Origin: an uncultured Acidobacteriota bacterium
GTDB lineage: Bacteria; Acidobacteriota; UBA6911; CAINFC01
Assembly (NCBI GenBank): GCA_903847975.1
Contig: CAINFC010000081.1
Location: 1 to 46,301 of the forward strand
Direction of reading: 5' to 3'
DNA length: 46,301 nt
Below, piece after piece: positions 1,277-32,295 of the stretch. Position numbers and translations under genes: made by a program. Below the pieces are notes generated by a model. The model saw only the letters and a program-made list of their open reading frames with translations, was not told the DNA's origin and did not search any database. Each line of letters opens with the position of its first letter. The stretch's first letter is position 1.

Positions 1277-1423
1277 TCCCCAGCCTCTCCGGTCCAGGGC
1301 CCGCCGGCGAAAGGAATGAACTTTTCTCTCCGGGGATCTGTCTATGACATATGAAAGAATGGCAACGGAAGGAAAGGTTTTACCAATATTAGGATTTTCT
1401 AACTCGGGAATGAAGGAGCATAT

Positions 1424-2524
1424 ATGCGAGGCAAAAATTTCAGGTTTTTCGCCCGCCGCCATGCGACGCGAACGGCGGCCTGGTTCTTCTGCGGACTTCT
1501 GCTGGCTGCGCAGCCGGCCCCGGAGCGGGATCCGGCCGGAAGCGGGCGAACCCAGGAGCGCGAACGACGCATGATCAGCACGGTCTGGGGATTCGACCAT
1601 GGCTACCAGCAAGGCTTCGAAGCCGGACAGAAGGACGGCCTGGCCCGCACCCGCTTCGACAGCCAGGCCAGCCAGCCCGGAGAAGACTTCGGTTTCCAGG
1701 AGCGCTTCGGATTCCGCGAAGCCTATCGTCAGGGATTTCGCAAGGGATTCGAGCAGGGATATGGGGATGGTTTTTATCGCCGTGAAAACCTGTTCCTGCT
1801 CCGGTACTGGGATCTGGGATTTGTCGGCCAGGAAGCCGCAGACCGTAGGGAGGCCCTGCCGGTACCGCAGCGCGAGGCGCCGCTGCCCAGGCCGGAGAGC
1901 CGTCCGGAGCCCAAGCCGGTGCTCAAGCCCAGGCCGGCGGCGACCAGCGGCGAGCTGCTCCCGGTGCCCTCCGACACCGTGATGCGGCTTCTTCTGGTCG
2001 ACACCCTGAGCACCAACTACAACCACCCCGGCGATCCTTTCTCCGCCCGGGTGGATGAGCCGGTGGCGGTGGCCAACAAGGTAGTGATTCCCAAAGGCAG
2101 CACCGTCAAGGGGCGCCTGGTGACGATCGACAAGGCCGGCAAGGTCTCCGGGCGCGCGGAAATGAATCTGCGGTTTGAGCAGCTGCTATTGCCCAATGGC
2201 CGGACCGTCGATATCGTAGCCACGCTGACCGGTCTTCCCAACCGCGGAAAGGAAACGGTCAAGTCCGAGGAAGGAACCATCCAGGGAGAAGGATCCAGGA
2301 AGCAGGATGTGGCCACCATCGGCACCGCCGGCGGAGCCGGCGCCGGTATCGGGGCCATCGCCGGAGGAGCCCGGGGAACCGCCATCGGTGCCGCCGTAGG
2401 GGGCATCGCCGGACTGGCGGGAGTGCTGTTTTCCCGCGGCAAGGAGCTGACCGTGCCGGCGGGAACGGAAATGGCCATCCGGTTGGATAAGCCCCTCGAC
2501 CTGCCCGTCTACCAGCCGCTCTGA
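1424..2524 (+). CDS. TrbI/VirB10-like barrel protein with GX3 repeats and glycine zipper
   Basis: 366 residues, probable envelope protein of unknown role. Residues 15-30 form a hydrophobic signal-like segment. Residues 57-118 hold two clusters of glycines every fourth residue (G60, G64, G68, G72; G104, G108, G112, G116), the pattern known from Yae1-type deca-GX3 motifs. A Pro-rich linker (145-172) precedes a TrbI/VirB10-like beta-barrel segment (180-275; note VVIPKGSTVKGRL and the closing VPAGTEMAIRLDKPL). A glycine zipper at 300-336 interrupts that barrel and could insert in a membrane. Start is supported by AAGGAG at 1413-1418. No conjugation or type IV secretion genes are nearby, so it is likely a stand-alone protein with this fold. 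Confidence 0.7.
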   Translation: MRGKNFRFFARRHATRTAAWFFCGLLLAAQPAPERDPAGSGRTQERERRMISTVWGFDHGYQQGFEAGQKDGLARTRFDSQASQPGEDFGFQERFGFREAYRQGFRKGFEQGYGDGFYRRENLFLLRYWDLGFVGQEAADRREALPVPQREAPLPRPESRPEPKPVLKPRPAATSGELLPVPSDTVMRLLLVDTLSTNYNHPGDPFSARVDEPVAVANKVVIPKGSTVKGRLVTIDKAGKVSGRAEMNLRFEQLLLPNGRTVDIVATLTGLPNRGKETVKSEEGTIQGEGSRKQDVATIGTAGGAGAGIGAIAGGARGTAIGAAVGGIAGLAGVLFSRGKELTVPAGTEMAIRLDKPLDLPVYQPL

Positions 2525-2530
2525 TCGAAA

Positions 2531-3379
2531 TCAGATCCGGATCGTCGGGCGCAGCTCGCCGGGTCCGGCTTCTCCCGGATAGGTGACCCGCTCCAGGAAC
2601 AGACCGGAGCTGGGCGCCGTCCAGGGAGCAATCTCGAACGTCTTTCCCTGCAGCGATTCCACAAACGATTCCAAGGGAAACTCTCCCTGGCCGATGCGCA
2701 CCAGAACGCCCACCAGGCGGCGAACCATCCGCCACAAAAAATGCGAGGCCCCGATGCGGAACAGCAGCAGGTCTCCGGCGCGGTCCAGCTCCGCGGAGGC
2801 CACCTTGACGACCGTGGAGGTGCTTCCGGGATTCCGCCGGTCCTGGTAGCAGGCAAAATCGTGCCGGCCGGGAATCAGAGCGACGGCTTGGCTGATCCGG
2901 CCGAAATCCAGGGGTGCTTTCACCCACCAGACAAAATCCTTGGCAAAAGCCGTTCGCCGCAGCGCCAGCTGGTAAAGGTAGTAGCGCAGCTCGGCATCGT
3001 GGCGGGCATGAAAGGTACTCTCCGCCTTGTCGACGGAAAGCACGCAGATATCCGCGGGCAACCGGTAGTTCAGTCCCTCCAGAATGGTTTGGGAAGGAAG
3101 CGTGCGCGTGCAGCGCAGGTGGGCCACCTGTGCGAGAGCATGCACTCCGGCATCGGTCCGGCCGGCCCCTCCGATTTCCACCTGGGACTTGAAGAGGTCC
3201 CGACAGGACGCCTCAAGAATCCCCTGGACCGTTTTGGCGTTGTCCTGGCTTTGCCAGCCGTGATAGCGGGATCCCTGGTACTCCAGGGTCAGCTTCCAGG
3301 TGGGAAGACTGCCCCGCGGGCCGATCCTCGCCTCTCCTTTTCCGTAGTCGGTTCTTTCTGTTCGGTTTGGTCTTTCCAT
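2531..3379 (-). CDS. truA: tRNA pseudouridine(38-40) synthase TruA
   Basis: 282 residues. Converts U38-U40 in tRNA anticodon stems to pseudouridine. The catalytic Asp lies in GGAGRTDAGVHA (D76). The N-terminal KLTLEYQGSRYHGWQSQ and the central RHDAELRYYLYQL and FLWRMVRRLVG blocks are typical of TruA. Compared with usual family members there are about 25 extra residues before KLTLEYQG, and no other good start inside; AGGA precedes the ATG at 3379 by a suitable distance. Last gene of the tlyA-nadK-thioredoxin-truA run, 33 bp after the preceding gene. Convergent with the TrbI-like gene, with 6 bp between their stops. Confidence 0.95.
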   Translation of the reverse strand: MERPNRTERTDYGKGEARIGPRGSLPTWKLTLEYQGSRYHGWQSQDNAKTVQGILEASCRDLFKSQVEIGGAGRTDAGVHALAQVAHLRCTRTLPSQTILEGLNYRLPADICVLSVDKAESTFHARHDAELRYYLYQLALRRTAFAKDFVWWVKAPLDFGRISQAVALIPGRHDFACYQDRRNPGSTSTVVKVASAELDRAGDLLLFRIGASHFLWRMVRRLVGVLVRIGQGEFPLESFVESLQGKTFEIAPWTAPSSGLFLERVTYPGEAGPGELRPTIRI

Positions 3380-3412
3380 GATGATCCTGGATAGGCTGCG
3401 GAGCCTGGAGAT

Positions 3413-10053: not shown

Positions 10054-10094
10054 ATCCCGTTGGGCTGCGCCGTCGGGCGGCGGGGCGGGATTTT
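10054..10094 (+). terminator. Weak candidate terminator after rsmE
   Basis: ATCCCG (10054-10059) pairs with CGGGAT (10086-10091) around a GC-rich loop that can itself pair, followed by TTT. It lies between convergent stops. The U-tract is short, so this is tentative. Confidence 0.3.
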
Positions 10095-12789
10095 ACCGGG
10101 GCTCCAGGACGATGTCGCGCCAGTTGAGCCAGTCGGCCACCGTGTTGTTTCCCGGGGCATTGGTGCACTTCAGGATCAGCTCCGCCTCCCGGCCGGCGAA
10201 GGGCTGCAGGTCGATCTTCACTTCCCGCCAAAACAGGCTTTTCCGGCCGGGATCGGGATGCATGTATTCCCGGAACAGAACGCTCTCGCCTTGCGAAGTG
10301 CGCAGGGCGGCCTCCGCCCAGGCTCCGTCTCCCAGGCGGTTCATCCAGGACACGTCAAACCGCAGCTGTAACCCGGCCTCCAGGAGACCCAGGGGCGCAA
10401 CCAGCGTAGAGGCGCCGATCTGCGTTACGATTTCCTTCCCGGGCAGGGGGAAGAATACCGGGGCGCCGGTGGGCGTTCCGAACCGCTCGTAGTCCGGATA
10501 AAACTCCGACCGGTCGACGCTCCAGCGCAGCCCCTCGAGGCCCGGAATCACCCGCCGGGCCCGGCTCAGCCGCCGCCCCTTGTAGTAGCCGGTCACGTCG
10601 CTGAAGGTTCCGGACATGTACTGCAGGATCCAAAGGTCGCCCTGTTCCCGGTAGGAATCCGGCAGCCGGGCCCCTTCATCCGCGAACAGCGTTTCCACCG
10701 GGCTGCGGCACACCCGGTTCCGGCAAAGCGGATCGCGGCGCACGGGCAGCGGGACCCGGCCTTCGAAGGTGGGCAGCAGGAAGAGAGTCATTTTCCCGCC
10801 CGGCTTGAGATAGGAGCTGACATCGTAGAAGGTTCCGCCCACCTCCTGGAAAAAGGAGACCTGAGGCGATCGCAGGTATTCCTCGGGCAGCCGGGCCAGC
10901 TCCGCGGAAGAAAGAAACCGCACCCGGCTCCCGGCCAGGCGATCCGCCGTGGAAGGGCAATCCCGCAGCGACCGGATGGGGGGCACCTTGCCGTCGATGG
11001 TGGGAAGCAGCAGCAGGGTGTCCGGCTGCCGGCCGTAGTAATAGGAGGTGACATCGTCGAAATGCCCGTCCAGGTACTGCAGAACCCATATGTTCCTGCG
11101 GAGAAGATAATCCTCCGGCAGCACGGCCCCCTGGTCGCCGATGCTCAGGTCGACGTACCGGCCGTAAATACTTCGTCCGCCGGCGGGAATCTTTTCGAGC
11201 AGAGGGGCACCGGTACCCTCGGAAGTGGGCAGCAGGAAAAGAGTCATCTTGCCGCCTTCCCGGAAATAGCGGGACACATCGTACAGGTGCCGGTCGAGGA
11301 ACTGCAGCACGATCCAGTCGCTGCGCCCGGCGAAATCCGCCGGAGGCCGCTCGCCCTTATGGGCAAAGAAAGCCCGGATGCGGGTCTGCGGATAAAACAG
11401 CCCGAACAGCTGCCCGCGATCGATGGGCGGCACGGACAGCAGCTGGGAAATGCCGTCGTCAAAAGCCGGAAGGAAAAACAGATTCACTTCCGCGGGAAGC
11501 ACGGGATGGGCCTCCCGGAAATCGTTCAGGCACTCTTCGAGGATTTCCGATTGATACTGGGCATCGGAGGCCGCCAGGTAGCTTCGGGTCTGCTGCAGGG
11601 AGGAGTAGCAATGCGGCGCCACCAGCAGACCGACCAGCAGTATGCCGCCTGCCGGCGAAAGGCGCGCGACCGTACGCCCGGCGGAAAGGCGTTCCGCCAG
11701 TACGGCAAAAAGCAAAGAAACGCCGAACAGGGGCAGGTACAGGTACCACTTCCCGAGGCGGCTGGATAAAAGCAGCGACGGCAGGTTAAGGCCGAAAAAC
11801 CAGGCGATTCCGGCCCACTCGACCGCCGAAAGGCGGAAACGGCGGCGGGCCAGGTCGGCAAGCCATACCAGGAAAAGAAGCCCCGTCGAGGCGAAAATCA
11901 GCTTCCGGATCCGATCGGCCTCATGGAGATGCAGCCCGTCGGGCAGGTTCAGCGCCCAGTAGACGTATTTCAGCTTGGCGGCCGGATTCGACCAGGGATC
12001 GATGCTGTAAGCAGCCTGGGTGCTCCGGGTGTAAAGCTGCCCGGACTGCTGCCAGTACAGGAACAGGCCGGCGAAAGCCGCAGCCGGAACGGCATAGAGG
12101 CAGACCCGTCCGAAGTTTTGCCGCATGGCCTGGAGCAGATCCTTTCCCGCGGGGACGCTGTTCCGCGAGCGCAGGTCGAAGAGGGCCAGAACCAGCCAGA
12201 CCGCCAGGGGGAAGGTAACCGCCGATTCCTTGGTCAGCAGGGAAAGCAGGAACAGAAAAAGCGAAGCCGCCTGCCGGCCGGGAGAGTTTCGCCGCCGGGC
12301 CTCCACGCCCAGAAGCAGGGAGCCGAGCAGCAGAAAGGCCAGCAGGAAATCCGACAGGTAGGTGATATCGTAAGTGATCCAGCCGGCCACGGAATGCAGG
12401 CCCCAGAAGGCGGCCGCGGCCAGCGCCGGAACCGGCCCGCCCAGGATCTGCCGGGCCAGAAAATAGAACAGTGCCGTATTGGCCAGGTGAAATGCCGGAG
12501 GAACCCAATGATACAGGACCGGGTCCAGTCCCAGCCAGGGGCGCAGCAGACCGACCACCGCCATGTTGAGCGGCCGGTAGTTCTTTTCTTCCCCGGGAGC
12601 CGCCAGATAGCGCCAGAGATCCTGCCAGGACTGCGGGGCGTGGATCAGGTAGAACAGGCTGTCATGGGTGAAGAACCGGGAAAAGGAGCCGGAGAAAAGC
12701 CATGCCTCCAGGACCAGAAGCAGCAGCAGAGCGGCCTTTTCGAAGGCTGCCTCGCTGCCCATGAATCGGAATCGGTATCGCCGGGTCAC
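10093..12789 (-). CDS. GT-C-like multipass membrane protein with C-terminal tandem repeats
   Basis: 898 residues. Residues 1-395 hold about ten hydrophobic segments with an early THDSLFYL (D43) and a YRPL motif (71-74), the layout of GT-C glycosyltransferases such as the PMT/TMTC group, which move sugars from lipid carriers. Residues about 480-745 are an extracytoplasmic region of about four imperfect repeats with a roughly 76-residue period: key Trp/Phe at 492, 568, 647 and 720, then LQYxxGxFxDVT and LLLPT. Residues 775-898 look like a jelly-roll carbohydrate-binding module ending NNTVADWLNWRDIVL. The start is GTG at 12789 with GGAGGAAG upstream; a TATAAT lies at 12823-12818. Function is inferred from topology only. 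Confidence 0.6.
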   Translation of the reverse strand: MTRRYRFRFMGSEAAFEKAALLLLLVLEAWLFSGSFSRFFTHDSLFYLIHAPQSWQDLWRYLAAPGEEKNYRPLNMAVVGLLRPWLGLDPVLYHWVPPAFHLANTALFYFLARQILGGPVPALAAAAFWGLHSVAGWITYDITYLSDFLLAFLLLGSLLLGVEARRRNSPGRQAASLFLFLLSLLTKESAVTFPLAVWLVLALFDLRSRNSVPAGKDLLQAMRQNFGRVCLYAVPAAAFAGLFLYWQQSGQLYTRSTQAAYSIDPWSNPAAKLKYVYWALNLPDGLHLHEADRIRKLIFASTGLLFLVWLADLARRRFRLSAVEWAGIAWFFGLNLPSLLLSSRLGKWYLYLPLFGVSLLFAVLAERLSAGRTVARLSPAGGILLVGLLVAPHCYSSLQQTRSYLAASDAQYQSEILEECLNDFREAHPVLPAEVNLFFLPAFDDGISQLLSVPPIDRGQLFGLFYPQTRIRAFFAHKGERPPADFAGRSDWIVLQFLDRHLYDVSRYFREGGKMTLFLLPTSEGTGAPLLEKIPAGGRSIYGRYVDLSIGDQGAVLPEDYLLRRNIWVLQYLDGHFDDVTSYYYGRQPDTLLLLPTIDGKVPPIRSLRDCPSTADRLAGSRVRFLSSAELARLPEEYLRSPQVSFFQEVGGTFYDVSSYLKPGGKMTLFLLPTFEGRVPLPVRRDPLCRNRVCRSPVETLFADEGARLPDSYREQGDLWILQYMSGTFSDVTGYYKGRRLSRARRVIPGLEGLRWSVDRSEFYPDYERFGTPTGAPVFFPLPGKEIVTQIGASTLVAPLGLLEAGLQLRFDVSWMNRLGDGAWAEAALRTSQGESVLFREYMHPDPGRKSLFWREVKIDLQPFAGREAELILKCTNAPGNNTVADWLNWRDIVLEPR

Positions 12790-12957: not shown

Positions 12958-15717
12958 ATGAAAATGAATTCCATCGATTTTGGCCTCCGGGCCTTTCTCC
13001 TAGTGTTCTCCTGTTGGACCTGGGCGAGTGCCGCCCTCGCCGCCGAGCCCCTCTCCGTCGGCCGGCTGCGCTGCGAATACCAGGCGAATCCGCTGGGGAT
13101 CGACGTCCTCCAGCCGCGGCTGAGCTGGCAGGTGACGGCCGATTCGCGGGGGTGGATGCAGTCGGCCTACCGGATCCAGGTGGCGGAAAAACCATCCGCC
13201 TTCCAGGCGGAAAAGGAGCTGCTGTGGGACAGCGGCCGCATCTCCTCCGACGCCTCTCTGCACCGGGCCTACGGCGGGCCGGCCCTGCAGTCTGCCAGAA
13301 GATATTTCTGGCGGGTGCAGGTCTGGGACCGCAGCGGAGCCGCTTCGCCCTGGAGCGAGCCCGGCTGGTGGGAAACGGGCCTGCTGGCGCCTGCCGACTG
13401 GCAGGGAGCCGCCTGGATTCAACCCGAAGGCGATGAGCCCAAGGCGGAAAACGGATTTATGCTGCGGAAGGAGTTCGAGGTGCCGGGCCCGGTGGAATCG
13501 GCGCGGGCCTACGTCAGCAGCCTCGGCCTGTACGAGATGCGGCTGAACGGCAAGCCGGTGGGCGACCAGGTGCTCACTCCGGGCTGGACCAGCTACGAGT
13601 ACCGGGTGCAGTATCAGACCTATGACGTCACTTCCCAGCTGCAGGGCGGAACCAACGCCGTAGGCATCGCTCTGGGGGGCGGCTGGTACCGCGGCGGCAT
13701 CGCCCGCGGCTCTTACGGGGACAAGCTGGCAGCCATCGCCTGGTTGCAGATTGTGCTGAAGGACGGGCGGCGGATTGCCGTCGGCACCGACGGCAGCTGG
13801 CAAAGCGCCGCCGGCCCGATCCTGAAGACGGACATCTACAATGGAGAGGCCTATGACGCCCGGCAGGAAAAACCGGGCTGGGATCAGAAGGCCTACGGCT
13901 CCTCGGGATGGCGCGGGGTCCGCGTCCTGGAGCATCCCAAGACCGTCCTGGTCGCGCCGGCCGGTCCGCCGGTGCGCCGCATCGAGGAGATCCGTCCGGT
14001 GAAGATCCTGAAAACCCCGGCCGGCGAGACGGTCGTGGACATGGGCCAGAACATGGTCGGATGGGTGCGGCTGAAGGTGTCCGGGCCGGCCGGCAGCACC
14101 GTCCGGCTGCGCCATGCGGAAGTGCTGGACAAAGCCGGCAACTTCTACATCCGCAATCTCCGGGCCGGCAAGCAGCTGGTGGAGTACACGCTCAAGGGCG
14201 GGGGCACGGAATCCTACGAACCGCACTTCACCTTCCAGGGATTCCGCTACGTGGCGGTGGAGGGCTATCCCGGGGAGCTCACCCTGGACAGCCTGACCGG
14301 CGTTGTGGTCCACTCCGAAATCCCGCCCACCGGGGAGTTCGAATGCTCCAACCCGATGATCAACCAGCTGCAGCATAACATCCGCTGGGGGCAGAAAGGG
14401 AATTTCGTGGACGTGCCCACCGACTGCCCGCAGCGCGACGAGCGGCTGGGCTGGACCGGGGATGCCCAGGCCTTTGCCCGCACTGCCAGCTTCAACGCCG
14501 ACGTGGCCGCCTTTTACACCAAATGGCTGCGCGACGTAGCCGCCGACCAGAAGCCGACCGGTGCGGTCCCGCACGTGGTCCCCAACGTGCTGGGCCGGCG
14601 GGATCCCAAGGCCAACACGGCTTCCGCGGGATGGGCGGACGCCGCCGTGGTGGTTCCCTGGACGGTTTACCTCTGCTACGGAGACACCCGCATCCTGGAG
14701 CAGCAGTACGCGAGCATGCGGATGTGGGTCGAATACATGAGCTCCCGCGCCGGAGAATCCTGCTTCTGGAACAACGACTTCACCTTCGGCGACTGGCTGG
14801 CGTTTGCCACCACCCGCTCGGACTATCCCGGGGCCACCACCGACAAGGACTTTATTTCCCAGGCCTATTTTGCCCGCTCCACCGACCTTCTGCAACGGAC
14901 CGCGGCGATTCTGGGAAAGAAGGAGGACGCCCGGAAATATGCCGATCTGCTGGTGCGCATCAAGAAGGTGTTTGCCGACGAGTTCCTGACCATCAACGGG
15001 CGCCTGTCTCCCAACACGCAGACCGCCTACGCCCTGGCGCTGGGATTCGACCTGCTGCCGGAAGCGCTGCGTTCCACGGCTGCGCGGCGGCTGGCGGAGG
15101 ATGTCCGCCGCTTCAAGCATATCACCACCGGGTTCCTGGGCGCCCCCCTGGTCTGCCAGGTGCTCAGCGACAACGGATATGCCGACGAGGCTTTCCTGCT
15201 GCTGAACCGCAAGGAATACCCCTCGTGGCTTTACCCGATCACCAAGGGAGCGACAACCATCTGGGAGCGCTGGGACGGCATCAAGCCCGACGGATCCTTC
15301 CAGGACGAAGGGATGAACTCCTTTAACCACTATGCCTACGGCGCCATCGGGGAGTGGCTGTACAAGTTCGTGGCCGGGCTGGAGATCGACGAACGGAATC
15401 CCGGCTACAAACACATCCTGGTCCAGCCGCACCCCGGCGGCGGACTGACGCAGGCCAGGGCCCGCATCCTCTCGCTTTACGGCCCGGCCTCCTCCGGTTG
15501 GGAAATCAAGGAGGGGCGCATGCGGGTGACGATCGAGATACCGCCCAACACCACGGCCTCGGTGCGGCTGCCGAAAGCCAGGCTGGACCAGGTCCAGGAG
15601 GGAGGCCGCCCCCTGGCCGGCGCCGTCGGAATCACCCGTTCGCTCCAGGAGGATAAGACGGCGGTGCTCGAGGTGGGCTCCGGCCGCTACGATTTCCAGT
15701 ACCCGATCAGCGAGTAG
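12958..15717 (+). CDS. Secreted GH78 alpha-L-rhamnosidase
   Basis: 919 residues. Signal peptide to about residue 29 (AALAAEP). The order is that of large bacterial rhamnosidases: N-terminal beta domain beginning VGRLRCEYQANPLGIDVLQPRLSWQV, further beta domains, an (alpha/alpha)6 catalytic barrel and a C-terminal beta domain. DCPQRDERLGWTGD contains the Glu (E495) that aligns with the general acid of characterised GH78 enzymes, and TTIWERWDG contains the matching general base (E770). It removes terminal alpha-L-rhamnose from glycans or glycosides outside the cytoplasm. AAAGGTG lies six bases before the ATG. It stands alone on the plus strand; downstream is a repeat region. Confidence 0.93.
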   Translation: MKMNSIDFGLRAFLLVFSCWTWASAALAAEPLSVGRLRCEYQANPLGIDVLQPRLSWQVTADSRGWMQSAYRIQVAEKPSAFQAEKELLWDSGRISSDASLHRAYGGPALQSARRYFWRVQVWDRSGAASPWSEPGWWETGLLAPADWQGAAWIQPEGDEPKAENGFMLRKEFEVPGPVESARAYVSSLGLYEMRLNGKPVGDQVLTPGWTSYEYRVQYQTYDVTSQLQGGTNAVGIALGGGWYRGGIARGSYGDKLAAIAWLQIVLKDGRRIAVGTDGSWQSAAGPILKTDIYNGEAYDARQEKPGWDQKAYGSSGWRGVRVLEHPKTVLVAPAGPPVRRIEEIRPVKILKTPAGETVVDMGQNMVGWVRLKVSGPAGSTVRLRHAEVLDKAGNFYIRNLRAGKQLVEYTLKGGGTESYEPHFTFQGFRYVAVEGYPGELTLDSLTGVVVHSEIPPTGEFECSNPMINQLQHNIRWGQKGNFVDVPTDCPQRDERLGWTGDAQAFARTASFNADVAAFYTKWLRDVAADQKPTGAVPHVVPNVLGRRDPKANTASAGWADAAVVVPWTVYLCYGDTRILEQQYASMRMWVEYMSSRAGESCFWNNDFTFGDWLAFATTRSDYPGATTDKDFISQAYFARSTDLLQRTAAILGKKEDARKYADLLVRIKKVFADEFLTINGRLSPNTQTAYALALGFDLLPEALRSTAARRLAEDVRRFKHITTGFLGAPLVCQVLSDNGYADEAFLLLNRKEYPSWLYPITKGATTIWERWDGIKPDGSFQDEGMNSFNHYAYGAIGEWLYKFVAGLEIDERNPGYKHILVQPHPGGGLTQARARILSLYGPASSGWEIKEGRMRVTIEIPPNTTASVRLPKARLDQVQEGGRPLAGAVGITRSLQEDKTAVLEVGSGRYDFQYPISE

Positions 15718-18692: not shown

Positions 18693-20756
18693 CTACCTGG
18701 CCGCCAGGGCGCGCCAGCGCCGGTACTGCGCCGTTTTGCGGGGATCGGGATCCTCGCAGCCCTGCAGCCAGTACCGGAACCAGTCCAGGTTGCGTTCCAT
18801 GGAAGCCCGGCGATGGCTGGGCAGAGAGAAAACATGGGGCGCACCCGGGTAGATCACCTGCTCCACGGGCTTTCCCAGGCGGCGCAGCGCCATGTAAAAC
18901 TCCAGCGACTGCACCCCCACATCGCCGCCGTATTCGCGCAGCAGTGGGATATTCATCTTATCGGCATTCAGGGCCGGGGCCACCCGCCGGTAATTCCCGT
19001 ACGCTTCCCCGAATGGCGGACCGCCGAAAAAATCGTCGAGGTAGCGCTGCATCCCGGCACTGCCCGTCACCCAGTACTGCCCGGCATTGTTCAGCCCGCC
19101 CTCCCCGGCCGACGCCGCCTGGAACAGCCCGGACTGGGTAATGGCCATCTCCGCCAGGAAAGCCCCGAAGCTCCACCCCAGGACACCCACCCGCTTCGGA
19201 TCGGCGATCCCCTCCTCCACCAGGCCCCGGACGGCGGCCTCCATGCCGGCAAGCGGGTTATAAACCTGCGACATCGCCGCTGCCTCGAAGTCGCCCGGCT
19301 TCCAGCCCAACTCCCGCGGGTAGTTGAACAGCAGCACGGCAAACCCGGCCTCGACAAAATGCTGCACCGGGTAGCTGGCGATCCACTGCGCCTGGGTCGT
19401 GAATTTGTTCGAAAACTGGTAGTGAACCATGAGCAGGGGGAGACGCTCTTCTTTCCACGGCCTGTCGGGCAGGAACAGAAAGCCGCCGACTTCATGGCCG
19501 AACCGGTTTTTCCAGGAGCGCTCCGCCGCGTCGCGCAGGCGGACGGAATCGAACTGCGGATTCAGCCGGGTCAGAATCCTGGTCCGGCCCGACTCCGCAT
19601 CCAGCAGGGCGATTTCCGGCGGAACCGTCAGCGCCTGCCGGATGCAGGCCGCCTGCTTTTTATCCGCCGAAAAGCTGAATTCGGAATAATGCGCGCCGTC
19701 GGAGGGCACGGCCTGGATCGGACCGGTCCCGAGCGGCGCGCGGTAGAGGGTCGAGTTTCGGCGATCGTCGTATTCGATCAGCAGGTTTTCTCCCCGACTG
19801 TCAAAAAGAACGGAGGAAAGAAAGAACCAGTCCCTCGCGCCGGCCACGGGAGCCGGAAGAGAATTTTCCTCCAGGGCCCGCAGGAGCGGCCGGCTGCGCG
19901 GCACATAGGTTTTCCCCTCCTCGCCGGTGGCCACGAACGCCAGGCGCCGCCCATCCGAACTCCAGGCGACCCCCCGGTTCCGCAGGCCGTCCTGCACGAA
20001 TGGACGGAACGCAAAAGGGGTACGGTCCAAATCCAGCAGGCCGATCCGCTCCCCCGGTCCGGCCTCGGTATAGGAAATGGCCGCCTGGCGGCCGGAAGGC
20101 GCCCAGGCCAGCCCGAGCAGGGAGGTCACTCCGCCCAGATCCGCGTCGATGCGTCGGGCGGCCGTCGTCCCCTTTTCCCAGAGCCAGAGCTCCGGCCGGC
20201 CCGGGGCCGTCCAGCTGCGCTGCGTAAAGGAGCGGATCCCGTGGAAATTTTCGTCATAGACCACGCCCTCCCGCTCGATCCGGCTGCGCTCTTCGGCCGG
20301 AACCGGGGGGACGGTGACGAAGAGCAGCCGGGACCCGTCCGGAGACCAGTCATATTGCATCACAGGGGTGGGATGCTCGAACAGGGGCTGGACGTCCTCC
20401 GTTTCCGTGGAGATGCGCCAAAGGGCGGTTTCTCCCGGTCGGGGCAGGATCGCCGAAAGCGCGCGGCCGTCCGGCAGCCATTTCAGTCCGGCAGCCGAGG
20501 AGGCCATCAGCCGCCTCGGCGCGGGCAGGCTTTCGCCGGCCAGCCACAATTCCGTGCGGCTGCTGTTCTCGGCCAGGCTGGACTGCCTTATCAGGAATGC
20601 AACCGTGCGGCCGTCGGGGGAAAGGCGCGGCGAGGAAGGCTCGCGCTGCTCGATGATATCGGCAAAGGTCAGCGCCCGCTTATCCTGGGCCGCGCCGGCC
20701 GGGATGAGCAGCAGAAGAAGAAAAAGCAAACGGAGTGCGGGTCGTGCACGGGTCAT
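18693..20756 (-). CDS. Exported S9-family prolyl oligopeptidase-like peptidase
   Basis: 687 residues. A signal peptide (to about AGAAQ) is followed by a TolB/WD40-like propeller with recurrent SPDGRTVAFL, SPDGSRLLFV, APSGRQAAIS and SSDGRRLAFV strands, then an alpha/beta-hydrolase domain. The catalytic triad is S529 (GWSFGA, the last Gly of the usual GxSxGG replaced by Ala), D612 (YGGDVGV) and H641 (GAPHVF). Such enzymes cleave short peptides or remove N-terminal residues. The ATG at 20756 has GAGGGG upstream and begins the signal peptide. It follows the acetolactate decarboxylase gene on the same strand after 110 bp that contain an inverted repeat. Confidence 0.88.
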   Translation of the reverse strand: MTRARPALRLLFLLLLLIPAGAAQDKRALTFADIIEQREPSSPRLSPDGRTVAFLIRQSSLAENSSRTELWLAGESLPAPRRLMASSAAGLKWLPDGRALSAILPRPGETALWRISTETEDVQPLFEHPTPVMQYDWSPDGSRLLFVTVPPVPAEERSRIEREGVVYDENFHGIRSFTQRSWTAPGRPELWLWEKGTTAARRIDADLGGVTSLLGLAWAPSGRQAAISYTEAGPGERIGLLDLDRTPFAFRPFVQDGLRNRGVAWSSDGRRLAFVATGEEGKTYVPRSRPLLRALEENSLPAPVAGARDWFFLSSVLFDSRGENLLIEYDDRRNSTLYRAPLGTGPIQAVPSDGAHYSEFSFSADKKQAACIRQALTVPPEIALLDAESGRTRILTRLNPQFDSVRLRDAAERSWKNRFGHEVGGFLFLPDRPWKEERLPLLMVHYQFSNKFTTQAQWIASYPVQHFVEAGFAVLLFNYPRELGWKPGDFEAAAMSQVYNPLAGMEAAVRGLVEEGIADPKRVGVLGWSFGAFLAEMAITQSGLFQAASAGEGGLNNAGQYWVTGSAGMQRYLDDFFGGPPFGEAYGNYRRVAPALNADKMNIPLLREYGGDVGVQSLEFYMALRRLGKPVEQVIYPGAPHVFSLPSHRRASMERNLDWFRYWLQGCEDPDPRKTAQYRRWRALAAR

Positions 20757-20774
20757 ACAATCACCCCTCGGTCC

Positions 20775-20822
20775 TCGCAAAATGGAAAGGATGGAAGTCG
20801 AAAAAGACGTGACCTTTTGCGA
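20775..20822. repeat. Inverted repeat TCGCAAAA / TTTTGCGA
   Basis: TCGCAAAA at 20775-20782 and TTTTGCGA at 20815-20822 could form an 8-bp stem with a 32-nt loop between the decarboxylase and S9 genes. The same arms, in the other order, occur at 7025-7062, and one arm at 25371-25384. Confidence 0.45.
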
Positions 20823-20866
20823 ATCCGCCCAGGAAGTGGACCTCTTATCCCGGAGGGCGGAAGGGC

Positions 20867-21670
20867 CTACTTCCTGTCGCTGAGGATGCGCCGCATTTCC
20901 TGCATGCGGTCCTTGCCGTACTGCACGTTCTGGAAAGCGGTGGGATCCTCGGGAAGGGCCAGCTCATAGCGGCTCATGGTCATGATGCGGACCTGCCCGC
21001 TTTCCATCTCGCAGGCGAACAGGTGCCCGCCCTTCTGCCGGTCTTCGCTGATGAAATGAAAATGGTATCCGGGGTAGTTGATCCCCTGCACGTAAGGAGG
21101 GCAGCGGAAGCCCAGCAGGGTTCCCGGGACCCGGTCGAACTCGGCCACCACCTGCCCTTTGACCGCCTCGAGCAGGCTGGTGTAAGGCCGGCTCTGCTCG
21201 GGGACGGTGCGGGTCCGGACCTTGTTGAAAAAACCGCTGACCCGGAAGGCGTAAAACAGGTGGGGGTTGGCTGCCGCCTGGTCCAGCAGCCCCTGCAGCG
21301 ATTCCATGGTGGTCCCATTGGGAATCTCGCGGGCGGCCCCCCCGGCAAACCGGCAGGCAAAGGCGTACGGCGTCAGCGCCTGCGGGGAAGGCTGATACAC
21401 TTTCCCATCCGCCTTGGCCTGGTACAGCTTTCCGTCCAGGAGAATCAGCTCTCCGCCGAGGCGGTCGAAAGCCCCGATGCCGAAATCGCCGTGCCGCTGC
21501 AGCTCGGCAATCGGCATCCGCCCGTCAAAATTGCCGGAGAGCAGAGCTTCGAAGAGCGCAAACTGAAACAAGGTTCCCGAGGCGGGAGGGGCGGATTGCG
21601 CCCGAATCCCCGGGGAAAGCACCAGTCCAAGGAAAACCCAAACCCACAGGACGCGCCGTTTCTCTCCCAT
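20867..21670 (-). CDS. budA: Alpha-acetolactate decarboxylase, exported
   Basis: 267 residues. Family signatures run through the protein: LFQFALFEALLSGNFDGRM (34-52), GDFGIGAFDRLGGELILLDG (61-80, with the conserved Glu E74), and YPGYHFHFISEDRQKGGHLF (199-218) with zinc ligands H203, H205 and H216. The reaction is decarboxylation of acetolactate to acetoin. An N-terminal signal peptide (RRVLWVWVFLGLVLSPGIRAQ) means the protein is exported; this is known for some homologues. No acetolactate synthase or butanediol dehydrogenase lies nearby. The start at 21670 has GGAAGG upstream and begins the signal; the longer ORF runs into a repeat. Confidence 0.88.
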   Translation of the reverse strand: MGEKRRVLWVWVFLGLVLSPGIRAQSAPPASGTLFQFALFEALLSGNFDGRMPIAELQRHGDFGIGAFDRLGGELILLDGKLYQAKADGKVYQPSPQALTPYAFACRFAGGAAREIPNGTTMESLQGLLDQAAANPHLFYAFRVSGFFNKVRTRTVPEQSRPYTSLLEAVKGQVVAEFDRVPGTLLGFRCPPYVQGINYPGYHFHFISEDRQKGGHLFACEMESGQVRIMTMSRYELALPEDPTAFQNVQYGKDRMQEMRRILSDRK

Positions 21671-25324: not shown

Positions 25325-25537
25325 CGAGATATCCTCCTTGATTTTGTCCCTATTCTATCACTGTTACCGCTTCGCAAAAAGTCGAATTAGTATCGATGCG
25401 GATCTTTCGCTTTCCTGTCGACCCTTCCCATTCCTGCGGTGCGCTTTTCATTTTTTTCTTTTTCCACATCCTTCTTCCTTCGGGAATGCGATACAATTCC
25501 CTAAAAAATGGCGACAAAAATAATGAAGGAGAAAAAT

Positions 25538-27358
25538 ATGACTGACAGCGCTTTCCCTGCCTTGCAGCCTCCCGTCAACCGCCTGCTCGGCCCGCTGCCG
25601 AAGGTTGGCATACGCCCGGCCATCGACGGCCGCCGCAAAGGGGTTCGGGAATCCCTGGAAAATCAGACCATGGACATGGCCAGAAGTACGGCCGATTTCA
25701 TTTCCAAAACCGTGAAGCATCCCTGCGGCCTGCCCGTCGAGTGCGTGATCGCCGATCGCTGCATCGGGGGAACCGCAGAGGCCGCCCTTACCGCGGAACA
25801 GTTTTCGCGCGCCGGAGTGGGCGTATCGCTGACCGTCAGCCCATGCTGGTGTTACGGGATTGAAACCATGGACATGGACCCCTGCCTGCCCAAAGCCGTC
25901 TGGGGCTTCAACGGCACGGAGCGGCCCGGAGCGGTTTACCTGGCGGCGGTCATTGCCGCCCACGCCCAGAAAGGCCTGCCGGCCTTCAGCATGTACGGGC
26001 GCGACGTTCAGGATGCCGGCGACACCGCCATACCCGAAGACATCCGGGAGAAAATCCTGCGATTCGTCCGCGCCGGCCTGGCGGTGGCCTCCATGCGCGG
26101 CAAGTCCTACCTCTCGATGGGCGGTACCTCCATGGGTATTGCCGGATCGCTGGTCGACTCCGCCCTCCTGGAAAAATATCTCGGACTGCGGGTGGAGCCG
26201 ATCGACATGTCGGAATTCACGCGCCGGGTGGAGGAAGCCATCTATGATCCCGCCGAGTACCGGGAGGCCCTGGCCTGGGTTAAAAAATACTGCCGCGAGG
26301 GGAAGGACTTCAACCGCCCCGCCTCCCAGCGGAGCCGCGAGCAGAAAGACCGGGACTGGGAATTTTCCGTCAAGATGGCCCTGATCGCCCGCGACCTGAT
26401 GGTCGGCAATCCGCGGCTCGCCGAGATCGGCTACGAGGAGGAGGCGATGGGCCGCAATGCCGTCGCCGCCGGCTTCCAGGGGCAGCGCCAGTGGACCGAT
26501 CACTTCCCCAACGGCGATTTCATGGAAGCCATTCTGAACTCCTCCTTCGACTGGACCGGCATCCGGCAGCCCTACATCCTGGCGACGGAAAATGACGCGC
26601 TGAACGGCATGGCTATGCTCTGGGGCCATCTGCTGACCGGAACCGCGCAGATTTTTGCCGACGTGCGCACTTACTGGAGCCCGGCAGCGGTGGAGCGGGT
26701 TACCGGCTGGAAGCCCGAGGGAATGGCCTCCGGCGGATTCCTGCACCTGATCAATTCCGGCGCGGCGGCCCTGGATGCCGCCGGACGCCAGTCGGCCGGC
26801 GGATCCCCGGTCATCAAGCCCTTCTGGGAAATCAGCCCGGAGGAAGCCGCGTCCTGCCTGGCGGCCACCAGCTGGCATCCGGCGGAGCTGGAGTACTTCC
26901 GCGGAGGCGGCTACTCCAGCCATTTCGTTTCGCCCGGAGGGATGCCGCTGACCATGTGCCGGCTGAACCTGGTGCACGGGCTGGGACCGGTGCTGCAGAT
27001 CGCCGAAGGCTGGAGCGCGGAGCTCCCCGCCCGGGTAAACGAGATCCTCGACCTGCGCACCAACCCGACCTGGCCGACCACCTGGTTTGTGCCGCGCACC
27101 GACGGACGGCATCCTTTCACCGATCCGTACACGGTGATGGCCAACTGGGGAGCCAACCACGGCTCGCTCTGCTTCGGGCACGTGGGCGCCGACCTGATCA
27201 CCCTGGCTTCCATCCTGCGGATCCCGGTTTTCATGCACAACGTTCCGGAGGAAAAGATCTTCCGGCCGGCGGTATGGTCCGCCCTGGGCACCCGCGACCT
27301 GGAATCGGCCGACTTCCGCGCCTGCGCCCTGTTCGGGCCGCTCTACGGAAAGTACTAG
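25538..27358 (+). CDS. fucI: L-fucose isomerase
   Basis: 606 residues (E. coli enzyme 591). Converts L-fucose to L-fuculose in the cytoplasm; also acts on D-arabinose. Similarity to FucI is strong throughout, including NSSFDWTG and [18 protein letters not shown]. The Mn2+ ligands aligned to E. coli E337, D361 and H528 are E351 (ATENDALNG), D375 (FADVR) and H541 ([19 protein letters not shown]). AAGGAG at 25526-25531 sets the start at 25538 and not at the in-frame ATG at 25508. It is followed after 114 bp by a rhamnulokinase-type kinase on the same strand. No aldolase gene follows. Confidence 0.95.
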
Positions 27359-27402
27359 CGCTTATTCGGATGCCGCGAATGCACGATGTACAGGAACCTG
27401 CC

Positions 27403-27422
27403 ATCCCGGCGAAAGCCGGGAT
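27403..27422 (+). repeat. Perfect GNRA-capped hairpin between fucI and the kinase
   Basis: ATCCCGGC and GCCGGGAT form an 8-bp perfect stem closed by a GAAA tetraloop. The sequence resembles the widespread REP-like CCCGCGAAAGCGGG class of intergenic repeats. In the mRNA it could protect the upstream fucI message or set the ratio of the two products. Confidence 0.6.
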
Positions 27423-27472
27423 ACGGCTGCTCCCTGCAACGATTCACTAACGATTCTTTAAGGATGAATGCC

Positions 27473-28963
27473 ATGAATCCTCCGATCCAATCCTATCTGG
27501 CCATCGACCTGGGCGCCGAAAGCGGGCGCGCGGTGCTCGGCATCCATGACGGTGAAACCCTGACGCTGCGCGAAATTTCCCGCTTCCCCAACGGACCGAA
27601 GACGATCCGGGGAACGCTGCGCTGGGACGCCTTCGGCCTCTTCTCGGCCATCAAGCAGTCCATCCGGCAGGCATTCCCGGAAGGAGGGGAGGGCCCGGCG
27701 TCCATCGGCCTGGACACCTGGGGCGTCGACTTCGGGCTTCTGGACCGCCACGGCCAGCTGATCGATCCGCCTTTTCATTACCGCGATGCGCGCACCAACC
27801 GGATTCTGACCCGGACCTTCGAGATCCTGCCGGCCGCGGAGATTTTTACCCATACCGGCATTCAGTTCATGCAGTTCAACACCCTTTTCCAGCTGATGGC
27901 CATGAAGCTGCAGGGCGACGTGGAGCTTGGGAAGGCGGGCACCCTGCTGATGATGCCGGATCTTTTCAACTACTGGCTGACCGGACGGATGGCCTGCGAG
28001 CGCACCATCGCCAGCACCAGCCAGTGCTATGATCCGAAAAGCCGCCAGTGGGCCTTCTCCCTGCTCGACAAACTGGGACTGCCCGCCGGCATCTTCCCGG
28101 AAATCATCGACCCGGGATCGGTCCTGGGAACCCTGAAGCCGGAACTGGCCGAGGGCCTCGGCGTTCCCGCCATTCCGGTGATCGCCCCGGGCTGCCACGA
28201 TACCGCCAGCGCCGTGGCCGCCGTGCCCGTCGGCCCGGAGTACGAGAGCGATTTCGCCTACATCAGCTCCGGCACCTGGTCGCTGATCGGGGCCGAAATC
28301 CCCGAGGCGGTCATCAACCAGGACAGCCTGGCATTCAACATTACCAATGAAACCGGTGTGGAAAACACCATCCGCTTCCTCAAGAACCTGGCCGGGCTCT
28401 GGCTGGTGCAGGAGTGCCGGCGGACCTGGAAAGAGCAGGGCCAGGAGCTCTCCTACGATGAGCTGACGCGGATGGCCACCGAAGCCCCCGCCTTCCAGTC
28501 GCTGGTGGACCCGGACGATTCCACCTTCCTGGCCCCCGGCGACATGCCGGCCCGCATTCAGGAGTTCTGCCGGCGGACCGGACAACAAATCCCGGAAAGC
28601 AAGAGCGCCATCGTGCGCTGCGCCCTGGAAAGCCTGGCGCTGAAAACCCGGTGGGTCATCGACCGCCTGGCGGCGCTGCTGGGGCGCAAACTCCCGGCCA
28701 TCCACATCGTCGGAGGCGGCACCCAGAACCGGCTCCTCAACCAGTTCATCGCCGAAGCCACCGCCCGGCCGATCTTCACCGGACCGGTGGAGGCCACAGC
28801 CATCGGCAACATCCTGATGCAGATGCTGGCCCAGGGGCGGATCGCTTCCCTGCGGGAGGGGCGCGACCTGGTCCGGCGCTCTTTCCCCATGGAAACCTAT
28901 CTTCCGCAGGATCCCGGCGCCTGGGAAGACGCCTATCGCCGGTTCCAGACCTGGCTGGCCTGA
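27473..28963 (+). CDS. rhaB: FGGY kinase of the rhamnulokinase type
   Basis: 496 residues. The N-terminal AIDLGAESGRAVLG (10-23) is the ATP-binding start typical of rhamnulokinases. GLDTWGVDFGLLD (79-91), MMPDLFNYWLTG (160-171), GCHDTASAVAAVP (240-252, catalytic base D243) and IVGGGTQNRLLNQFIAEAT complete the family pattern. It would phosphorylate L-rhamnulose, or here, given the fucI neighbour, L-fuculose. AAGGATG at 27459-27465 favours the ATG at 27473 over the one at 27464. Same strand as fucI, and ended by a strong terminator-like hairpin at 28986-29011. Confidence 0.87.
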   Translation: MNPPIQSYLAIDLGAESGRAVLGIHDGETLTLREISRFPNGPKTIRGTLRWDAFGLFSAIKQSIRQAFPEGGEGPASIGLDTWGVDFGLLDRHGQLIDPPFHYRDARTNRILTRTFEILPAAEIFTHTGIQFMQFNTLFQLMAMKLQGDVELGKAGTLLMMPDLFNYWLTGRMACERTIASTSQCYDPKSRQWAFSLLDKLGLPAGIFPEIIDPGSVLGTLKPELAEGLGVPAIPVIAPGCHDTASAVAAVPVGPEYESDFAYISSGTWSLIGAEIPEAVINQDSLAFNITNETGVENTIRFLKNLAGLWLVQECRRTWKEQGQELSYDELTRMATEAPAFQSLVDPDDSTFLAPGDMPARIQEFCRRTGQQIPESKSAIVRCALESLALKTRWVIDRLAALLGRKLPAIHIVGGGTQNRLLNQFIAEATARPIFTGPVEATAIGNILMQMLAQGRIASLREGRDLVRRSFPMETYLPQDPGAWEDAYRRFQTWLA

Positions 28964-29037: not shown

Positions 29038-29988
29038 ATGAGTGGTGAAGACCGGTTCCAGGCACCCTGGAACTTCCTTGGACTGCCGGAGGAGATTTCG
29101 TCTCCGCAGCACGCCCGGGGATGGCTTCTGCCGATTCCCTACGAGTCGACCACCTCCTACGGTGCGGGAACGCGCGAAGGTCCGTCGGCCATTCTCAGCG
29201 CTTCCCGGCAGGTGGAGCTTTACGACCATGAGTTCCAGGGAGAGCCGGCGCTGGCCTACGGCATTCACACTACCCCGGCCCTGAACCTGGTCCACCGCTC
29301 CCCGGAAGCCATGGTGGCCAACGTGGCCGAAGCGGTAGCCGAATTGCTGACCGGATCGCCGCGGCCCGAGGTGCTGGGGATCCTGGGCGGGGAGCACACC
29401 CTTTCGGCCGGCGTGGCCCGCGGCCTGGCCAAAATCATGGACCCTGCGTCCCTGGTCGCGGTGCAGATCGACGCCCACGCCGACCTCCGGGAGGAATACG
29501 AAGGGTCGCCCTTCAGCCATGCCTGCGCCGCCCGCCGGATCCTGGATGTCTGCCCGGTTTTTCAGATCGGCATCCGCAACCTCTCCCTGGGAGAGGCGGA
29601 GTTTCTGAAGAAAAACCGCAGGGTGCGCACCGTTTTTTCCGAGGAATCCAGCGAGCCCCGGGGCCGTTTTCTCGAGGACCTGGCCCGGTTCGTCAAGGGC
29701 AAAACGGTTTTCTTCACCATCGACCTGGACGGCCTGGACCCGGCGATCATGCCGGCCGTAGGCACGCCGGAGCCCGGGGGAATCTCCTGGCAGCGGCTGC
29801 TGGAAGTCGCCCGGGTCGTCTGCCGGCAGTCCCGCAAAGTGGCGGTGTTCGACATTGTCGAGCTGGCCCCCCTCCCCGGCTTCCGGGCCCCCGACTTTCT
29901 TTCCGCCAAGCTGGTTTACAAATTATTTTCCTATATTCTTCTGGGCCGGGAGAAGACAAAAAAACCTAAGCAGGAGAAGCGATCATGA
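29038..29988 (+). CDS. speB: Agmatinase/arginase-family ureohydrolase
   Basis: 316 residues. The binuclear Mn motifs are complete: GGEHT (H120), DAHADLR (D145, H147, D149), H161 in FSHA, and IDLDGLDP (D229, D231). The family hydrolyses guanidino compounds, releasing urea; agmatine to putrescine is the standard reaction, but aminopropylagmatine and guanidinobutyrate enzymes have the same motifs. GGGAGGAG precedes the ATG. Its last codons overlap the next gene by 4 bases (ATGA), so translation is coupled. Its partners are a DHS homologue and a PLP decarboxylase, which ties it to polyamine synthesis. Confidence 0.9.
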
Positions 29989-31142
29989 GCAAGATTAAGC
30001 TCCCCAGGAAGTTCATCAGCAAGTACCCCCATAAGTTCAGCAAGGGCAAGCAGCAGTTCCTGCGCGGCAAGCGCATTCTGCCTCAGCCGATCACCGGCCA
30101 GGAATCGCTGGCCGACCTGATCGACGGCACCTTCCAGGCCTACAACGCCGCCCGGCTGCAGGAGGCCTGCCGGCTGTTTACCGAAAAAATGCTGGCGCCC
30201 GGGGTGACCATCGGCATGAGCCTGGCGGGCGCGCTGACTCCGGCCGGGCTGGGCTCGGCGGCGGTCATTCCGCTGATCAAGGCCGGCTTCGTGGACTGGA
30301 TCGTGGCCACCGGCGCCAACCTGTACCACGACATGCACCATGCCATGAACATGCCGCTCTACCGGGGCTCGCCGTTCGTCCGCGACCCGGAGCTGCGCAA
30401 GGTCGGCGTAGTCCGCATCTACGACATCCTGCTGGACTACAACGACGTCCTGATGGCCACCGACCACCTGCTGCGCCAGATCCTGATGCAGCCCGAGTTC
30501 CAGCACGAGATGGGCACCGCCGAGCTGCACTTCCTGCTGGGTAGATACTGCGCGGAATTCGAAGAGCAGACCGGCCTCCTGGACAGCTCCGTGCTGGCCG
30601 CGGCCTACCGGGCGGGCGTACCCTGCTTCTGCCCCTCGCCGGGAGATTCCACCATCGGGATGAATATCGCCGGGCTGGAGCTGCGCGGCAGCCAGCTGCG
30701 CGTCAACCCCAGCCGCGACGTCAACGAAACCACGGCCATCGTTCTGGATGCCAAGCGCCGCAAAAACAAGACCGGCGTGCTGCTGGTGGGCGGCGGCTCC
30801 CCGAAGAACTTCACCCTGCAGACCGAACCCCAGATCCAGGAAGTACTGCGCATCAAGGAGGCCGGGCACGACTACTTCATCCAGTTCACCGACGCCCGCC
30901 CCGACACCGGCGGCCTTTCCGGCGCCACGCCGCACGAGGCCGTCAGCTGGGGAAAGGTCGACCCCACCCAGCTGCCCGATGCTGTGGTCTGCTACCTGGA
31001 CTCCACCGTGGCCCTGCCGATGGTTACCCACTACGCCCTGGCCCGCCATAAGCCTCGCGAGCTGAAGCGCCTCTACGGGCGGCTGCCGGAGCTGATGGAG
31101 ATGGTCTCCAAGGAATACTGGAAGCACAACAAAAAACTCTGA
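29985..31142 (+). CDS. Deoxyhypusine synthase homologue, probable homospermidine synthase
   Basis: 385 residues. The fold and NAD-binding motifs of deoxyhypusine synthase are present: [13 protein letters not shown] (76-88), [13 protein letters not shown] (104-116), [11 protein letters not shown] (215-225), and [14 protein letters not shown] (312-325). K274 in GGGSPKN lies where eukaryotic enzymes have the Lys that carries the butylimine. Bacteria have no eIF5A, and bacterial homologues studied so far act on small polyamines, typically making homospermidine from putrescine. This gene starts inside the agmatinase stop and is followed 13 bp later by an ODC-like gene, which supports that role. 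A guanidino acceptor (see findings) is possible. Confidence 0.82.
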
Positions 31143-31155
31143 GGGAAGCGGCGCC

Positions 31156-32295
31156 ATGAGCAAAACGCAACGGCTGGCCCAGCTGGCCCGGCAGCACGGC
31201 ACACCGCTGTTTGTGGTGGATCACCAGGTCCTGCGCAGCAACTACGCCCGGTTCCGGCGCTTTCTGCCGCGGGTGCAGGCCTATTACGCAGTCAAGGCCA
31301 ACAGCGAGCCGGCCATCATCCGCACCCTGTATGAAACCGGCGCCAGCTTCGACGTGGCTTCCCTGGCGGAATTCATGCTGGTCTACGAGAACATCCGCAA
31401 GCTCCCCGCCCGGGCCCGCCAGGATTTCATCTGGGACAAGATCATCTACTCCAATCCCATCAAGGACCGCAAAACCCTGGAGGAGCTGGACCCCTACAAG
31501 CCGCTGGTCACCTACGACAACCGCGAGGAGATCGGCAAGATCCGCCGGCACGCCCCGCACGCCGGCCTGGCGCTGCGGATCCGGGTGGCCAACACCGGGT
31601 CCATGGTTGAGCTGTCCAGCAAGTTCGGCGCCTCCCCCGGCGAGGCGGTGGACCTCATCCTGGAGGCCGCCGACGCCGGGCTGACCGTGGAGGGCCTGAG
31701 TTTCCACGTGGGCAGCCAGTGCACCAACTTCGACAACTACGTGCAGGCCCTGTCGGTGTCCGCGGCGATCATGGAAGAGTCCGAGGTGCGGGGAGTGCCG
31801 CTCCAGCTGCTGGACATCGGCGGCGGCTTCCCGGCGCGCTACGATCGCCATGTCCGCCCCTTCCGGGACCTGGCCCGCATCCTGAACGCCGAGCTGGACC
31901 GCCTGTTCCCCAAAAGCATGGAAATCCTCTCCGAGCCCGGCCGCTTCATGGTGGCCACGGCGGCCACGCTGGTGGCCGAAGTGATCGGCAAGGCGCGGCG
32001 CGACGGCAAGCAGTGCTATTACATCAACGACGGGATCTACCACACCTTCTCCGGGATCCTCTTCGACCACTGCCCCTACCACGTGAGGGCCTTCCGGCGC
32101 GGCCGCAAGGAGATCAGCGCGGTTTTCGGGCCGACCTGCGACGCGCTGGATGTCATCTCCCAGGCCGAGGAGCTGCCGGACCTCAAGCTGGGAGACCTGG
32201 TGTACAGCGAAAACATCGGCGCCTACACCCACGCCAGCTCCACCCGCTTCAACGGCTTCCCGCCGGCTCAGGTGGTGCACATCAACCGGAAGTAG
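31156..32295 (+). CDS. Ornithine decarboxylase-like PLP enzyme (alanine-racemase fold)
   Basis: 379 residues. K47 in YYAVKANSEP is the PLP Lys. HVGSQC, LDIGGGFP, and SEPGRFMV supply PLP and phosphate contacts, and FGPTCDALDV contains the catalytic Cys (C328). D304 in ILFDHC fits the Asp that selects ornithine (or lysine) in fold-III decarboxylases; the chlorovirus arginine decarboxylase has Glu there. It would make putrescine from ornithine. Third gene of the agmatinase-DHS-decarboxylase operon. Length is shorter than arginine decarboxylase SpeA (over 600), so that identity is excluded. Confidence 0.87.
   Translation: MSKTQRLAQLARQHGTPLFVVDHQVLRSNYARFRRFLPRVQAYYAVKANSEPAIIRTLYETGASFDVASLAEFMLVYENIRKLPARARQDFIWDKIIYSNPIKDRKTLEELDPYKPLVTYDNREEIGKIRRHAPHAGLALRIRVANTGSMVELSSKFGASPGEAVDLILEAADAGLTVEGLSFHVGSQCTNFDNYVQALSVSAAIMEESEVRGVPLQLLDIGGGFPARYDRHVRPFRDLARILNAELDRLFPKSMEILSEPGRFMVATAATLVAEVIGKARRDGKQCYYINDGIYHTFSGILFDHCPYHVRAFRRGRKEISAVFGPTCDALDVISQAEELPDLKLGDLVYSENIGAYTHASSTRFNGFPPAQVVHINRK

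Follow-up and report, generated by a model that had tools for sequence, protein, structure and literature searches.

A GT-C-like membrane protein of an uncultured acidobacterium with four tandem alpha/beta units ahead of a predicted beta-sandwich

The window, that is, the whole stretch of 46,301 nucleotides that was analyzed, derives from contig CAINFC010000081.1 of an uncultured Acidobacteriota bacterium. The features of the gene described here are listed in Table 1. Its surroundings comprise an RNA methyltransferase, a Na/Ca exchanger and an alpha-L-rhamnosidase, and hold no glycan cluster. The alpha-L-rhamnosidase (window 12958-15717), together with an L-fucose isomerase followed by an FGGY sugar kinase (window 25508-28960), suggests deoxy sugar use.

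Table 1. Features of the gene and of its product, in window coordinates.
Feature	Residues	Position	Strand	Basis or remark
Whole gene	1-898	10093..12789	minus	898 aa, GTG start; membrane core of the GT-C kind, then four tandem units and a beta-sandwich
GT-C-like membrane core	19-391	11617..12735	minus	hydropathy of the protein and its homologues; PMT_2 matches
D43, invariant acidic residue, first outer loop	43	12661..12663	minus	second D of TMTC motif M1; alignment with motif table of PMC7801869
Y71-R72-P73	71-73	12571..12579	minus	part of TMTC motif M2 (SHKSYRP); alignment with motif table of PMC7801869
D147	147	12349..12351	minus	D of TMTC motif M3 (RxD), R not kept; alignment with motif table of PMC7801869
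K187-E188	187-188	12226..12231	minus	TMTC motif M4 KE(T/Q)xxT, phosphate/metal site; alignment with motif table of PMC7801869
LYLP	350-353	11731..11742	minus	Y351 is the Tyr of TMTC motif M7; alignment with motif table of PMC7801869
Helix from membrane to first unit	397-434	11488..11601	minus	common to single-unit relatives
Unit 1 (80 aa)	435-514	11248..11487	minus	self-comparison, unit alignment; corresponds to the single unit of relatives
Unit 2 (76 aa)	515-590	11020..11247	minus	self-comparison, unit alignment
Unit 3 (76 aa)	591-666	10792..11019	minus	self-comparison, unit alignment; lowest conservation between paralogs
Unit 4 (73 aa)	667-739	10573..10791	minus	self-comparison, unit alignment
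C-terminal CBM-like beta-sandwich	about 742-898	10096..10566	minus	structural matches of model; present in relatives

Hydropathy places about 11 transmembrane (TM) segments in the membrane core, with one long outer loop behind TM1 and another that links TM7 to TM8; the helix boundaries were merged by eye from several homologues. The initial annotation had proposed a GT-C-like transferase core, a reading backed by weak, repeated matches to PMT_2 (PF13231), by the 11 TM segments and by conserved motifs. The window protein, for which Pfam gave no other family, scores 20.2 bits against PMT_2, below the Pfam gathering cutoff of 26.1, and is for this reason classed as GT-C-like on its sequence and not as a PMT_2 member; five of the ten aligned relatives match the profile (best 3.6e-10). 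A GT-C protein is recognized by a core of several TM segments together with an acidic residue in the first loop on the outer side; the window protein has both, in its 11 TM segments and the invariant D43. The residues kept from the TMTC motif table of PMC7801869 are D43 (M1), YRP 71-73 (M2), D147 (M3), KE 187-188 (M4) and Y351 (M7), and the alignment shows D43, YRP, D147 and KE to be retained in nearly all relatives as well. Motif M5, a DW between TM7 and TM8, and the Arg of M3 (RxD) were absent from the window protein in the alignment with the motif table, so that the full set M1-M7 is not present, and the C-terminal TPR array that defines TMTC proteins is not found either. Given an odd number of helices and an N-terminus inside, the repeats would lie on the outer side, the same side as the catalytic loops.

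The protein shares with TMTC1-4 (GT-C/PMT clan, C-terminal TPR arm; PMC7801869) the 11 TM segments, the long TM7-TM8 loop, the motif residues D, YRP, D, KE and the Y of M7, and, presumably on the outer side, an array of repeated domains behind the last TM helix. Apart from the missing M5 and R, it differs from TMTC1-4 in having alpha/beta units instead of TPR and a sandwich at its end. Two GT-C relatives outside the subfamily, from the same phylum (L010, G000:C252; L019, G006), carry TPR-like arms in place of the alpha/beta units and are thus of the TMTC type. ArnT, the structural template in PMC7801869, likewise has a soluble periplasmic domain C-terminal to its GT-C core; it differs in its 13 TM helices and single soluble domain, and the likeness is one of architecture only. 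The lack of M5, the TPR-like arms in the same position in G000:C252 and G006, and the loss of catalytic positions in one relative (G027b, see below) would fit a protein with a GT-C fold that transfers no sugar and acts, for example, in assembly, with the array as a protein-protein interaction arm. Such a role is regarded as unlikely, in view of the retention of the four catalytic motif positions both here and in nearly all relatives and of the location of several relatives within glycan clusters.

Self-comparison of residues 401-898 gave ungapped match scores of 199, 95, 85 and 60 at offsets of 152, 77, 75 and 227, respectively, and none of 100 shuffles scored above 47, which confirms the four imperfect repeats first noticed in the 898-residue protein from the sequence alone. 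The aromatic residues that mark them (W492, W568, F647 and W720) and the reading frame lie where the initial annotation had put them. Its bounds for the array, about residues 480-745, required correction to 435-739 (window 10573-11487), since the first unit begins at VNLFFLPAF, about 45 residues further upstream. The proposed period of 76 residues is close to the average of about 75, with individual units of 80, 76, 76 and 73 residues. In the unit alignment units 2 and 4 (42% identity) and units 3 and 4 (39%) are closest, and unit 1 is the outlier at 25-28%; the maximum at offset 152 nevertheless reveals a likeness between the pair of units 1-2 and the pair 3-4. A Trp/Tyr and an RLP...LQY...DVT pattern are kept across the units as a consensus, part of which has been lost from unit 3, the least conserved. 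Pfam and NCBIfam scans of the repeats gave no match, so that the expectation of no named domain was borne out for Pfam; a sequence search of the PDB with the protein found no relative, and a literature search of partial coverage found no paper describing this repeat. The unit family is absent from Pfam, and the multiplication of the domain is a modest variation on known enzymes.

A structure model that spans units 1 and 2 and the helix ahead of them (residues 412-590) reached a pLDDT of 85 and a pTM of 0.83. The predicted order of elements, namely a strand, helices, a strand and a two-strand hairpin, is identical in both units. Structure prediction, which had been named as a check that could overturn the repeat, thus returned a repeated alpha/beta fold, here with no Pfam match. 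TPR-type repeats were considered for the array and rejected, because the predicted units are mixed alpha/beta and Pfam scans contained no TPR. Compared with the PDB in Foldseek and VIA-align, the two-unit model had no clear counterpart, the best E being 0.21 and the best Z 3.8 over 72-82 residues, a result that is not evidence of a new fold. Modeled as a whole, the soluble part came out poorly (pLDDT 65, pTM 0.39), mainly in units 3 and 4, and the placement of units and sandwich relative to one another is not readable from this model.

For the C-terminal domain, annotated initially as a jelly-roll, the model predicts a beta-sandwich with Z near 11-12 to CBM51, CBM16 and a hyaluronan-binding module, which supports that annotation. 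The rmsd is 2.7-3.0 over 125-131 residues to CBM51 and the hyaluronan-binding module, and Foldseek E values reach down to 8.5e-6. MAM domains and other binders of non-glycan ligands match the predicted sandwich too, so the fold alone is no proof of glycan binding. The suggestion that the repeats could form an acceptor- or glycan-binding arm is plausible; the resemblance to known glycan binders is confined to the sandwich and does not extend to the units.

The same genome encodes a paralog of 956 residues (G000:C78) with four units that match those of the window protein one to one, at 53-75% identity per unit; overall the two are only about 65% identical. The paralog adjoins a peptidase-like gene and a TonB-type receptor (read by eye), and it too lies outside any glycan cluster. 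Intact relatives with two units were found in G026 and G027, which belong to another family of the class; the G026 protein also occurs, with identical sequence, in L033 (Acidobacteria bacterium isolate CTSoil_012). G027 additionally holds a second two-unit copy (L020, G027:C24, here G027b; minus strand, 1405-3408), which looks like a decaying gene: YRP and the K of KE are gone, D147 is replaced by N, and the frame stops before the sandwich. About 11 relatives in the phylum have a single unit (G000:C22, G001, G002, G003, two in G004, two in G007, two in G022, and G375, the last by profile), and a twelfth (G026b) is cut by a contig end. The single unit sits after the last TM helix; in some relatives the sandwich follows, and others end at the unit. 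Of 396 genomes sampled from the phylum, 10 contain a match to a profile of the leading helix and unit, and nine of these belong to the class of the window. A scan of contigs with a single protein as query gave no match, and four loci were found with the alignment as query.

A tree built from the membrane core joins the five multi-unit proteins with support of 100/100 and nests the four-unit pair within that clade at 100/99. Judged from these alignments, members of this GT-C family normally have the unit as a single-copy domain. The simplest history would lead from one unit to two and then to four, with the four-unit state predating the split of the paralogs. The last step may have been a duplication of a unit pair: the offset-152 signal favors this, but the unit tree does not group unit 3 with unit 1.

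The dN/dS ratios between the paralogs are about 0.17, 0.28, 0.36 and 0.10 for units 1 to 4, 0.26 for the core and 0.21 for the sandwich; as dS exceeds 1, these ratios are rough. They show purifying selection on all four units, with the outer units apparently the most constrained. A neutral expansion, in which recombination-driven tandem duplication added units that are tolerated and have no function of their own, would account for the restriction of more than one unit to five proteins of a single clade and for the weaker constraint on the inner units. It is considered rather unlikely, as the four units have survived unit by unit in both of the diverged paralogs, with all dN well below dS. The constraint on the outer units, and the consensus kept across all units, could also be read as the mark of a multivalent acceptor clamp, each unit binding one stretch of glycan or peptide rather than acting as a passive spacer. 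This, too, is given a low probability. The conserved residues lie mainly in predicted strands and turns, as expected for a fold core; unit 3 has lost part of the pattern; and a likeness to a known glycan-binding fold was not found with the two-unit model in Foldseek or VIA-align, where weak matches prove nothing either way.

Several relatives lie among genes for glycan synthesis. The G026 gene, as seen in L033, adjoins a GT2, an NAD-epimerase, a DegT aminotransferase, a methyltransferase and a GT4; the G027 gene is near a GT4, a GT2 and a methyltransferase; the G001 gene directly adjoins an ABC ATPase with Wzt_C and a GT2/GT4 fusion; and the G022 gene adjoins a methyltransferase and an epimerase. 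A parallel is offered by the GT136 enzyme ORF12 of Citrobacter youngae, which combines a GT-C domain with a C-terminal CBM and modifies an exported O-polysaccharide (PMC11127046). Its CBM binds the acceptor, yet the enzyme could do without it under the conditions of that study, which left unclear what the additional soluble domains do. Shared with the window protein are the GT-C core and the C-terminal CBM-like sandwich, likened here by architecture and not by sequence, as well as the setting, since relatives of the window protein occur in polysaccharide clusters, one of them beside a Wzt-type ABC exporter. ORF12 differs in being described with no tandem alpha/beta units. The mycobacterial EmbA/B/C and AftD, GT-C enzymes with CBMs cited in PMC11127046, are comparable as outer-face enzymes whose extra soluble domains contact the acceptor polysaccharide; their soluble domains are different ones, and the comparison implies no sequence relation.

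The glycan clusters of the relatives and the ORF12 parallel are the grounds for reading the protein as an outer-face GT-C transferase that modifies an envelope polysaccharide with a polyprenyl-linked sugar, the multiplied units serving as a spacer or as an arm that guides the acceptor; this reading is assigned a probability of roughly 0.6. The enzyme, from the PMT/ArnT/TMTC side of GT-C, would take its sugar from a polyprenyl-phosphate donor at the outer face of the inner membrane and transfer it most likely to an envelope or secreted polysaccharide, or to another glycoconjugate. The small alpha/beta domain after the last TM helix, single in most relatives, has here been multiplied, from one to two to four in the simplest history, and the resulting tandem array links the membrane core to the CBM-like sandwich, the putative acceptor-binding part. 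As a spacer or arm, the array may set the reach between the active site and the sandwich. The more specific idea that the unit is an undescribed periplasmic GT-C domain whose copy number acts as a ruler, fixing how far from the membrane or along the polysaccharide the sugar is placed, is a long shot. The natural series of one, two and four units on one enzyme core gives a handle on the role of GT-C soluble domains, and the unit points to a domain family absent from Pfam.

Further genes were noted elsewhere in the window. Genes of the arginase family, the deoxyhypusine synthase family (PF01916) and the ornithine/arginine decarboxylase family follow each other at 29038-32292 and form an apparent polyamine set in a bacterium. 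Two long frames overlap on opposite strands (18813-20969, plus; 18696-20780, minus); the plus-strand frame is probably spurious, because Pfam supports the minus frame as a prolyl oligopeptidase. The frame at 17518-18642 matches the Nal1 C-terminal domain (2.3e-7), a name that derives from a plant protein.
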